Shown here: positions 57,298 through 61,865 of the stretch, one piece after another
Numbering within the stretch: position 1 is the first letter of the stretch
Layout: the number at the start of each line of letters is the position of its first letter
From: Cardiobacterium valvarum
Lineage (GTDB): Bacteria; Pseudomonadota; Gammaproteobacteria; Cardiobacteriales; Cardiobacteriaceae
Direction: 5' to 3'
Length of the DNA stretch: 64,000 nucleotides
Assembly (NCBI RefSeq): GCF_900460955.1
Contig: NZ_UFUW01000001.1
Span: 682,001-746,000, forward strand
Notes under the pieces: generated by a model
The model's database searches: none
The model's input: the letters and a program-made list of their open reading frames with translations, nothing else
Told to the model about the DNA's origin: nothing
Translations under genes and position numbers: made by a program

Positions 57298-58035
57298 TCA
57301 AAGTGGCAGCTCAATGGTGCGGATATCTACTATTGCCTCATGTCCGAATTGGTCGCTCAGGCAGTAGGCGAGGATTTTTAGCGCAGTGTCATTGGCGTTT
57401 TGCAGCCCGCCATCGGCGTGGATTTTGGTGAAGTGTTCGCGCAACGGGAAATGTAGGTTGCGGCGCAGCCCTTCTTGCATGGCGGTATCGACGGTACCGG
57501 GGGCGAGGCTGACAATGCGCACGCCGCGTTCTTCGTTCGCGGCGTCGGCGGCATGGCGATCAAGCGCAGCTTTGCTCGCACCGTAGATGCTCCAGCCAGG
57601 GTAGGCTTTGCGACCAGCGCCGCTGCCGATGTGGACGATGTTGACGTTATCTGGGCGGCGTGCTTCTGCGACCACGGCGTTGCTGAGCAGGAACGGTGCG
57701 GTGATATTGAGGTTGATGGCAAGCGCAATTTGTTCGTCGTCCTGCGTGCCAAGCGGGGCAGACGGGGCGACGGTCCCGGCGTTGTTGAAGAGCCACAGGC
57801 GTCCGGCCTCTGCGCAGAAGTGACGGAAGGGGGGGCTGTGGATGAGGGCGAGCACAGCAATGGGGTTGGCGAGGTCGCACTGGATTTCCTGCAGGGTATG
57901 CGGGTAGGTGGCTGCAAGCGCAGGGTTGGTGCTGCGCGCGATGCCGAGAACGCGCGCGTCGCATTGCAGCCAGGCGGCGGCGAGGGCGGCACCGAGGCCA
58001 TAGCTGTGGCCGGTGATGATGACGGTTTCGCTCAT
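57298..58035 (-). CDS. Short-chain dehydrogenase/reductase (SDR)
   Basis: The 245-residue classical SDR has the cofactor turn GHSYGLG near residues 8-14, NNAG near 84-87, the catalytic Ser in HIGSGAG and YGASK (Tyr and Lys near 151-155). It uses NAD(P)H on an unknown carbonyl substrate; the overall sequence resembles the YueD/benzil reductase type. The start overlaps the rsmA stop by 4 bases. Confidence 0.88.
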   Translation of the reverse strand: MSETVIITGHSYGLGAALAAAWLQCDARVLGIARSTNPALAATYPHTLQEIQCDLANPIAVLALIHSPPFRHFCAEAGRLWLFNNAGTVAPSAPLGTQDDEQIALAINLNITAPFLLSNAVVAEARRPDNVNIVHIGSGAGRKAYPGWSIYGASKAALDRHAADAANEERGVRIVSLAPGTVDTAMQEGLRRNLHFPLREHFTKIHADGGLQNANDTALKILAYCLSDQFGHEAIVDIRTIELPL

Positions 58036-58829
58036 GGATGTTGTTCCTTGTGGTAATGGGCATTGGCAAGGCGGGCGTAGGCGGCGCCATCGAGGGTTTC
58101 AGGGCGCGCGGTCGGGTCAATGTCGAGTGCTGTGAGTTCGGCTGGGCTGAACCATGCGGCGAAGGTATGGCGCAGCATTTTGCGACGCTGGTTGAAGGCA
58201 CGGCCAACGGTTGCGGCGAAGGTTGCTTCATCGTCGATCATCCAAGCGGGGGTGGTACGCGGCACGAGGCGGACGATGGCACTATCGACTTTCGGCGGTG
58301 GCGCAAAGGCGGCGGGCGGGATGGTGAAGAGGGCAGCGGTGTCGCACCACAGTTGTGCCATCAGGCTGAGGCGGCCGTAGTCTTTACCGCCTGGCGCAGC
58401 GGTGATGCGCTCCACAACTTCTTTTTGCAGCATGAAGTGCATATCGGCGATGTGCGCGCGCGCGGCGAGGCAGTGGAAGAGGATGGGTGAGCTGAGATTG
58501 TAAGGCAGGTTGCCGACGAGACGCCAACGTTCGGGCTGCGGCGGAATAGCGCCAAGATCCACGTCGAGGATGTCGGCATGGATGAGGTGTAACTCGCCCA
58601 GCGATGCAGCGCGGGTGGTAAGCGGAGCGATAAGGCGGGTGTCGTATTCGATGGCAGTGAGCTGTCCGGTTTCACGCAGTAGTGGCAGGGTAAGGGCGCC
58701 GAGGCCGGGGCCGATTTCGAGCAGGGCCTCGCCCGGCTGCGGATGGATGACGGCGAGGAGGCGGTCAATAACGCTGTTATCGCGCAGGAAGTGCTGGCCG
58801 AGGCGTTTGTCAGCGCGGATGGAGGTCAT
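58032..58829 (-). CDS. rsmA: 16S rRNA (A1518/A1519) dimethyltransferase
   Basis: The ATG at 58829, preceded by a modest GGCTAT, gives 265 residues and the expected KsgA start with RADKRLGQHFLRD. SAM motif ILEIGPG-like (LLEIGPGLGALT) near residue 40, the catalytic NLPYN near 106-110 and the helical C-terminal domain follow. The frame is open for 107 more codons upstream and encodes hydrophobic helices, noted separately. In many gammaproteobacteria the order is lptD-surA-pdxA-rsmA; here pdxA is absent and an AT-rich island separates surA from rsmA. Confidence 0.94.
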   Translation of the reverse strand: MTSIRADKRLGQHFLRDNSVIDRLLAVIHPQPGEALLEIGPGLGALTLPLLRETGQLTAIEYDTRLIAPLTTRAASLGELHLIHADILDVDLGAIPPQPERWRLVGNLPYNLSSPILFHCLAARAHIADMHFMLQKEVVERITAAPGGKDYGRLSLMAQLWCDTAALFTIPPAAFAPPPKVDSAIVRLVPRTTPAWMIDDEATFAATVGRAFNQRRKMLRHTFAAWFSPAELTALDIDPTARPETLDGAAYARLANAHYHKEQHP

Positions 58830-59179
58830 GATATAGCCGTGTATATTTGAGGGATGAAAATAGCGAAGGAAAAGGCTAACAGGGCAATGATTGGGCAGCC
58901 ACCAGGCAGGGTCGTAGTTCGCCCAGAAGCTGATGGCCATGAAGCCGGCAGTGAAGGTCAGGGTAAATCCGGCGGTGAGAAGGATTTCGCCTATTTTGTA
59001 TTGATATTGATACCGTATGAGAGCGATTTTGTTTAGGGTGGTGATAGCAAGCCAGTAAGCGACGGGGGAGATTCCAGTCAGAATAAGTGGTATTTTGGTG
59101 ATTTTTATATAATAAGCTGAGAACATAGAATGTTTTTTGTATTCAGGCAAGAAGAATAAAAATCCATTTTGAGATATTT
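58830..59179 (-). other. In-frame AT-rich upstream extension of rsmA; possible membrane-protein fragment
   Basis: From an ATG at 59150 an uninterrupted frame runs into rsmA. Translated, it gives two or three hydrophobic helices (ISPVAYWLAITTLN; IGEILLTAGFTLTFTAGFMA) and a WANYDPAWWLP motif. It may be a small membrane-protein gene that lost its stop, or chance. I do not include it in RsmA, because all known RsmA proteins start near the chosen ATG. Confidence 0.35.
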
Positions 59180-60334
59180 TTATGGGCTGCGTAGATATTC
59201 GTACTCGCCTGGTAAATTGTATAGGGGATCAATCTCTAATATGCGATTATAAATATGTTCGCTGGCGGAAAGAGCTTTACGCCTTTTATATATTTGGTCA
59301 TTTTTCTTGCTCTCTTCTATTAAAAGTTCAAGATCTTCTAATTCTGCATCTTGCAATATTCTCAAAATAATTTCTTCAAATCGTTTGTCAGCAATATCAA
59401 AACTATAGCTTGCGCCATAGCATTTTATAGCCAGATAAATAACGGTTTTTTTCCATTCATCTGATTGTGAAATATGTGCAAGATCATCCCAAAAGTTCTC
59501 TGTATCATCAGGAAATTTGTCATGGTTTGGTTTGTCATCAATCCAGCTGCGCAAGCTGTTAATATGTTCTTTAAGGGAGCTGGCAGTAAACCATGCCAGC
59601 CAGCGGGCAGTTACATCTTTTTCAACGAATCCTTCAATAAGGGTTTTTGCATCTTCTGTTAATAAATTATAGACTTCAGGATAAAGGGAAAGGAACTTGA
59701 TTAAAAGGAGTAGTATGTTGTCAGTACTTGCTGTATTACTAAAATAAGTTTTGTCAGTCTCTATCTGTCTATTAAATTCAGTACGTTTTTTATTATAAAG
59801 AATGAATAGCGCTTTGTAATTTATTTCTCTATTTTCTTCACAGTTATCATCTTCAGAGCGGAAGACAAATTTCCATAGTGATCTGAATACACCTTTTTCA
59901 GCTTCCATGCTTAATCTTGAGTAGTACTTGCTGTCCAAATAGGTTTTTAGTTTTTCAATGCTAGGAAAGAGTTCTTTGTTCTTCCTAATATCATCTACCA
60001 AGTCAGATGCAATTTTTTGTGAGCGAGATAAAAGCGGATCTTTAATAAGTAGTCCATCAAGCGTATTTCTAATTAACGCCCGTACGGTCTCTTGATTAGG
60101 TCGATGTAGCTGAAAATCTTCATTGACTACTGGGTGTGCTGAAAGATGTCTCTGTTCTTGTAAGTGGCGCAGATTTGTTTCTTCTGAAGTATTAAGGAGT
60201 TCAGTTCTTTCTGAAATTTTATTAATTAACTCTTCCTCCCATTTTGGAGACCTCTTGTTATTTTCTTGTTGAGATTTTATCTCAGCAAGTATTTTTTTTT
60301 GCTTTTGTATCATCATATCTTTCTGCAAGTTCAT
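59180..60334 (-). CDS. C-terminal piece of the HEPN-like protein (384 residues as open frame)
   Basis: The open frame from ATG 60334 lacks a good Shine-Dalgarno, and its first 14 residues (MNLQKDMMIQKQKK) look out of register, so translation probably depends on a shift from frame 1. It contains RHLSAHPV (Rx4H), then a long all-helical region rich in Lys, Glu and Asp. No membrane segment. Confidence 0.5.
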   Translation of the reverse strand: MNLQKDMMIQKQKKILAEIKSQQENNKRSPKWEEELINKISERTELLNTSEETNLRHLQEQRHLSAHPVVNEDFQLHRPNQETVRALIRNTLDGLLIKDPLLSRSQKIASDLVDDIRKNKELFPSIEKLKTYLDSKYYSRLSMEAEKGVFRSLWKFVFRSEDDNCEENREINYKALFILYNKKRTEFNRQIETDKTYFSNTASTDNILLLLIKFLSLYPEVYNLLTEDAKTLIEGFVEKDVTARWLAWFTASSLKEHINSLRSWIDDKPNHDKFPDDTENFWDDLAHISQSDEWKKTVIYLAIKCYGASYSFDIADKRFEEIILRILQDAELEDLELLIEESKKNDQIYKRRKALSASEHIYNRILEIDPLYNLPGEYEYLRSP

Positions 60335-60497
60335 TTAGTTTGAATAATAAATCGCAAACAGCGACAGACCACAGCATGACCACGGCTGAACGGTAATTGC
60401 CAGAATTATAGCAACTAACTACTTCTGCAAAATAATCTTTGGTATTTTTGTTAGGAATTGATTTGGCTCGCTGTTCAATGGAGTATTCGTCAAACAT
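60282..60497 (-). CDS. N-terminal piece of the HEPN-like protein (71 residues)
   Basis: Start ATG at 60497 with an AAGGAA site 6 bases upstream. The reading frame MFDEYSIEQRAKSIPNKN to DDTKAKKNTC ends at TGA directly after the A9 tract. The helix YNSGNYRSAVVMLWSVAVCDLLFKL is the conserved first helix of the family. In its current phase it would give a 71-residue product. Confidence 0.5.
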   Translation of the reverse strand: MFDEYSIEQRAKSIPNKNTKDYFAEVVSCYNSGNYRSAVVMLWSVAVCDLLFKLNELAERYDDTKAKKNTC

Positions 60498-60563
60498 ATG
60501 TATTTCCTTATTTTGGTCACGAATACCCCTCCCATATAGAGGTGGGAGAGGCAGTTGTAAGCG

Positions 60564-61865
60564 TTAGCGGATATCAACGTAGGCTTCGCGGCGTAGCGCT
60601 TGCAGGCGCTGTTGCCAGGCTTCTTCGATGGCTTTGCTGTAAAGGCCCTGCTTGATTTGCTGGCGCATCATGTCCTCGCTTTTATTGCTTTGGCGGTGGC
60701 TGCGTACGAGCAGGATGTGGTAGCCGTAGGGGGTGCGGATGGGTTTGCTGATGCCGCCGTCAGGCAGGCTGGTGATGGCCTGGGCGAGTTCGCCGCCCAG
60801 GGACTCGCCGCTCACCCAGCCGAGGTCGCCGCCTTTGGCCGCACTCTGGCCGTCTTCGGAGTAGCGGCGCGCGAGGCTGGCGAAGTCCGCCCCGCCTTGT
60901 AGTTCGCGGTAGATGGCGTCAATGCGGTTTTTCTGGGTGGCGTCGTCGCGGCCATCGTTGGTGCGCAGCAGGATATGTGAGACGTCGGCTTCGTTCAGGG
61001 TGTAGTTTTCGCCGGCGTTGTGTTTGGCGACGACTTTTAGGAAGTGCATGCCGTCGTCGTCCACCACCGGGCTTTCGACGATGTCGCCCGCGCCGAGTTT
61101 GGCGAGCGCGCGCGCGAAGCGGGGCGGGATGGTGGCGAGGTTGAGGTTGCCGAGGTCGTTGAAGCGGGCGCCGCTGACGCGGGCGCCCGCCTGGCCGAGG
61201 TTTTGTCCGCTTTCTTGCAGGGCGCGGGCGACTTCACGGATTTTTTCGTCCACGGCGGCGGCGCGGGTTTTGGCATCGCCTGCAGGCAGCGGGATGAGCA
61301 GGTCTTGTACGTGCATGGTGCTGCCTTGTTCGCGCGCGAGTTTGGCGAGGTAGTCGTCCACTTGCTGGTCGCTGATGGTGATGTCCGCGCCGACCATGCC
61401 TTCTTTCATCTGGTCCTGGGCGAGGGTGCGGCGGATTTGTTCGCGGAAGGCTTCGCGGTCCAGGCCGGTATCTTTTTGTGCCTGGGCGTAGAGGGCTTTT
61501 TCGCTGAGGCGGTTGCGGTTCGCGATTTGCGCGATGGCGGCATTTACTTCGTCATCGCTGATGTTGAGGCCGACGCGTTTTTCGATCTGGCTGAGGATGT
61601 GGTTCATGATGACGCGCTCGAGCAGTTGCTGGCGTAGTTCGGCGTCGGGGAGGTTCAGGCCTTTGGGGACGCTGCGCCGCTCGGCTTCGATTTCTTGCGC
61701 GAGCTGGCGGCGGGTAATGGCTTCGTCGTTGACGACGAGGCCGATTTCGTCAATGGGCTGGCTTTGCGGGGTAGTGGCCGGGCCAAAGGTGAGGTTTTGT
61801 GCGCTGCTGCTCAGGGTGATGGCAGCTAGGGCGAAGGCGAGGGTCAGGGTGTGTGTGGGTTTCAA
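60564..61865 (-). CDS. surA: Periplasmic chaperone/prolyl isomerase SurA (TTG start)
   Basis: I start at the TTG at 61865 (GGAG upstream), which gives 433 residues and a proper signal peptide, KPTHTLTLAFALAAITLSSSAQ; the longer open frame lies in lptD. The SurA N domain (VVNDEAITRRQLAQEIE) is followed by two parvulin domains, of which the second (HILLRTND, the ARRYSEDGQSAAKGGDLGW motif) is well preserved. SurA escorts outer-membrane proteins to BAM. It overlaps the lptD stop by 4 bases. Confidence 0.92.
   Translation of the reverse strand: MKPTHTLTLAFALAAITLSSSAQNLTFGPATTPQSQPIDEIGLVVNDEAITRRQLAQEIEAERRSVPKGLNLPDAELRQQLLERVIMNHILSQIEKRVGLNISDDEVNAAIAQIANRNRLSEKALYAQAQKDTGLDREAFREQIRRTLAQDQMKEGMVGADITISDQQVDDYLAKLAREQGSTMHVQDLLIPLPAGDAKTRAAAVDEKIREVARALQESGQNLGQAGARVSGARFNDLGNLNLATIPPRFARALAKLGAGDIVESPVVDDDGMHFLKVVAKHNAGENYTLNEADVSHILLRTNDGRDDATQKNRIDAIYRELQGGADFASLARRYSEDGQSAAKGGDLGWVSGESLGGELAQAITSLPDGGISKPIRTPYGYHILLVRSHRQSNKSEDMMRQQIKQGLYSKAIEEAWQQRLQALRREAYVDIR

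Follow-up and report, generated by a model that had tools for sequence, protein, structure and literature searches.

A PD-T7-3/Dandelion phage defence gene inserted between surA and rsmA of Cardiobacterium valvarum and interrupted at a nine-adenine tract, probably by an inactivating single-base slip

The window analyzed in this work, a 64,000-nucleotide stretch of the Cardiobacterium valvarum genome, carries between the housekeeping genes surA and rsmA an interrupted member of the PD-T7-3/Dandelion family. With moderate confidence, we propose that this gene was acquired horizontally and then interrupted by a single-base slip that inactivated it. The gene comprises two overlapping minus-strand frames: the first, of 71 aa (60282-60497), encodes the N-terminal part of the PD-T7-3 HEPN domain and stops just after a tract of nine adenines (A9; 60292-60300, minus strand, T9 on the plus strand), at which the sequence changes frame, and the second, of 384 aa (59180-60334), overlaps the first by 53 bp and encodes the rest of that domain together with a helical C-terminal half. 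The first-pass annotation had read the two frames as one protein, and this reading is borne out: joined across A9, they give 438 aa with 0 stops, a construct that we used as a device for searching and folding only; four homologues align across the junction without a gap, the P2-EC30 homologue having GCGGAAAAGATA where the window has GC-A9-TA; and the chance of a stop-free stretch of 370 codons, the longer part of the joined reading, is ~4e-13. No lesion other than A9 occurs in the 438 codons. One continuous open frame, which an active PD-T7-3 protein requires and descent from the family does not, is absent, being broken at A9, and therefore the window gene is an interrupted family member.

The family assignment, which we regard as almost certain, is carried by collinear matches on both sides of the tract. 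The first frame matches the PADLOC PD-T7-3 model at E 7.4e-31 (profile positions 2-67 of 432), and the second continues in the same order at E 3.9e-115 (positions 64-415 of 432). The read-through protein matches PDB entry 9wxf, a structure of 12 chains, at E 2e-81 over residues 5-419, and both it and a profile of 68 homologues yield three convincing PDB matches, 9wxf, 9wx2 (named 'Dandelion-hepn') and 9wwz, all named Dandelion, with the aligned parts of these PDB sequences being the E. coli/P2-EC30 protein. All 68 homologues scanned with PADLOC match PD-T7-3 and no other model, while Pfam, NCBIfam and PHROGs returned nothing useful for either frame. Therefore, the first-pass annotation's suggestion of an undescribed system is not upheld, since both frames match PADLOC PD-T7-3 and the read-through protein matches the Dandelion structures. 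PD-T7-3 was discovered by functional selection in E. coli, where it protects against T-even phages more strongly than against T7 (Vassallo et al. 2022, PMC9519451), and a review places it under HEPN (PMC10952713); by this homology, the defence role that had been suggested for the window gene is supported. The window gene resembles PD-T7-3/Dandelion in collinear full-length homology, with 37% identity to the P2-EC30 protein, in the HEPN domain with RHLxAHP, and in being a single gene without an antitoxin, but differs in lying in the chromosome between surA and rsmA instead of in a prophage, and in its interruption by A9. The family thus reaches into a host lineage new to it and, beyond prophages, into a site within a housekeeping operon.

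The HEPN reading was already part of the first-pass annotation, which recognized an Rx4H motif in RHLSAH (60134-60151, minus strand; residues 116-121 of the joined reading) and suggested a structure prediction; both lines of evidence agree with it. The motif is invariant as RHLxAHP in 86/86 full-length homologues, an invariance that is partly circular as RHL[SC]AHPV was one of the two retrieval patterns, although sequences with RHLAAH could have entered only via the other pattern. Also invariant in the 68-row alignment are E25, R36, V40, L42, D49, K53, D63, W86 and E87, together with R116, H117, L118, A120, H121, P122, L130 and P133; the wider set of 86 sequences agrees, and all the family-wide invariant residues, RHLxAHP included, are present in the window reading. 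The model of residues 1-255 is all-helical with pLDDT 89, and in it helix 103-120 ends in RHLSAH. Only two structures, 2hsb and 2q00, match it at a probability of 0.99, both HEPN or HEPN-like, and HepT toxins and AbiV follow further down the list, all of these with weak E-values; viral models gave no informative fold match. The N-terminal domain is thus predicted to adopt a four-helix HEPN fold with the R-x4-6-H motif, consistent with the name Dandelion-hepn of 9wx2. In its helical fold and in the R-x4-6-H that terminates a core helix, the window protein resembles the HEPN ribonucleases HepT, AbiV and ApeA, but it has no sequence-level match to them, it carries an extra C-terminal helical half, and its gene lacks a nucleotidyltransferase antitoxin.

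Based on these findings, we propose how the family could act and how its function may have been lost here. Intact relatives protect against phages; infection would be sensed through the C-terminal half, whereupon the HEPN active site (R116/H121), as the HEPN domain of PD-T7-3 proteins suggests, would cut RNA and so stop the infected cell. In the window gene as assembled, A9 ends translation after residue 71, ahead of the active site, and in the model the tract lies in helix 64-79, likewise ahead of it. The 71-aa product lacks the R-x4-H motif, and the second frame lacks the first HEPN core helices as they are modelled. Most probably, a slip of one base within a run of lysine codons switched the gene off, leaving it presumably inactive at present. 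A single-base slip in A9 would be easily reverted and may be slightly leaky via RNA-polymerase slippage.

The insertion itself is evident from the locus. Upstream lies surA (60564-61865, start approximate, minus strand) and downstream rsmA (ksgA; 58032-58829, minus strand; Pfam RrnaAD, E 6e-60), in the same surA-rsmA order as in congeners, and in two congeners the two genes are directly adjacent, in one of them with stop and start overlapping as ATGA. This adjacency marks ~1.7 kb of the present locus as an insertion. The GC content of the island is 35%, against 63% for surA and rsmA, and the arrival by transfer that the first-pass annotation had suggested from the AT-rich island is thus supported: the PD-T7-3 gene was acquired horizontally. 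The 384-aa frame has no match among 40 relatives except in its own genome, although the PADLOC PD-T7-3 model matches one family member (L020), distantly and weakly (E 5e-5). Neither an integrase nor a partner gene stands beside the PD-T7-3 gene, and nothing antitoxin-like adjoins it, as had been noted from the sequence. A GC-rich hairpin (60513-60554, minus strand; RNA fold z -2.5 for 60490-60566) lies past the surA stop, ahead of the first frame, and might act as an attenuator or terminator-like structure. On the other side, separating the PD-T7-3 gene from rsmA and in frame with rsmA, is a partial reading of a DUF5360-like membrane protein (58830-59150, minus strand; Pfam DUF5360, E 4e-7), which covers only profile positions 52-108 of 127, looks like a remnant, and is absent from 12 relatives. 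Separately, rsmA of one congener (G001; L013 1240-1500) carries an in-frame insertion of ~260-280 bp that is rich in C and G runs and has inverted-repeat character.

How A9 arose was weighed among several readings, to which we assign weights by judgement rather than by computation. A real inactivating slip is probable. Since the gene bears no other lesion, the loss must be recent or the A9 call wrong. Of the P2-EC30 alleles in 15 E. coli genomes, one is broken by a nonsense mutation and a second by the loss of one A in an A6 run, which shows that simple loss occurs in the PD-T7-3 family; the A9 allele and these E. coli alleles together suggest that a PD-T7-3 defence gene can be lost via single mutations.

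An error of assembly or base calling, with the gene intact in the cell, is a less likely explanation. Errors in long reads usually fall in homopolymers, the 438 codons are otherwise free of lesions, and the genome completeness is 89.7%; against this, the assembly shows no excess of flagged frameshifts, with 6 here versus 8 in a congener (~270-280 frames shared with the congener, in 600-kb samples), and two further coding-frame A9 runs, one of them in dnaX, are read correctly. Several of the flagged frameshifts lie in IS-like or opposite-strand frames, and an apparent frameshift in lptD was rejected as an artefact of an extended opposite-strand reading. The low frameshift count and the intact A9 runs lower the likelihood of an error at 60292-60300.

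Alternatively, slippage at A9, by RNA polymerase or during replication, could allow a minority of transcripts or cells to yield the full protein and be kept by selection; the first-pass annotation had suggested that the gene may be phase-variable or slippage-expressed, which we consider improbable. In many bacteria, selection against slippage becomes evident once runs reach nine nucleotides (PMC1088944), so that A9 is indeed long enough for slippage, as had been pointed out. Rescue of an interrupted gene by slippage has precedent (PMC4256274), both frames are otherwise intact, and in dnaX of the same genome an in-frame A9 is followed at once by stops in the slipped frames. However, the tract and the split are absent from all homologues: at 97 related loci there is no run of nine or more, the longest being A8. 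The length is also within chance: when the gene is simulated with a Markov model or its codons are shuffled, a run of at least nine A arises in 16% and 24% of cases, respectively. A minus-one ribosomal frameshift at A_AAA_AAA was rejected, as it reaches another early stop. The hairpin after the tract was likewise discarded as a recoding signal: it scores z -5 against dinucleotide shuffles, but 3/100 synonymous shuffles are as strong, and folds elsewhere in the gene are stronger. The window gene shares with the slippage-expressed genes Thermus dnaX, Shigella mxiE and Citrobacter tssM a frame change at a homopolymer of slippage length, but those genes differ from it in being backed by transcript or product evidence (PMC1088944, PMC4256274). 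We see no sign of selection for reversion or leakiness. Were the A9 allele switchable, it would represent a phase-variable HEPN defence gene, of which our literature search found no case. We hold it improbable that the tract keeps a PD-T7-3 effector at a low or switchable level, with slippage by RNA polymerase or in replication confining an abortive-infection nuclease to a minority of transcripts or cells and sparing the rest its cost.

It is very improbable that the two frames encode separate proteins of a split two-piece enzyme. An ATG at 60334 does open the 384-aa frame, but no purine-rich ribosome site precedes it, each half lacks conserved core helices, and no homologue is so built. The inactivating slip thus remains the reading that we prefer.

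Homologues were retrieved with an alignment-based contig scan, as a single-sequence scan found nothing. The nearest full-length homologues of the window gene share ~50% identity with it, and most of this group stand directly behind a BREX-helicase-like gene; a quick tree places the window gene beside the group, without firm support. In this clade, the PD-T7-3 homologue starts 2-11 bp after an SNF2 gene of 900-1000 aa resembling the BREX helicase (L043 2224-6302 and ~19 loci, L044-L054, L064, L108, L116 and L120-L123). In two examined loci an adenine methylase precedes the SNF2 gene, and in one the PD-T7-3 homologue is followed by a GmrSD-like gene. The setting resembles that of BxaP, a protein reported as structurally similar to PD-T7-3 and likely to act by abortive infection (PMC10799925), but the window gene lies outside any BREX or RM locus, with surA and rsmA as its neighbours. 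From a comparison by description only, the window gene may be kin to BxaP.

Other homopolymer sites of the same genome were observed outside the window gene. In dnaX, which lies outside the window (G000:C2:1009796; frame 1008274-1010248), only a few codons separate A9 from a stop in the slipped frames, an arrangement shared with Thermus dnaX, making it a candidate for production of a short gamma subunit, whether by ribosomal frameshifting or by transcriptional slippage. Two near-identical loci, probably an IS (G000:C2:705100-705868 and 784984-785850), each have two frames that meet at an A8 run, possibly a slippage-expressed transposase. Finally, a C9 run at G000:C2:767904 lies in a 332-aa frame beginning MTNQPTNTTRK, which has a paralogue at 802183-803038, and the two are candidates for a phase-variable surface-protein family.
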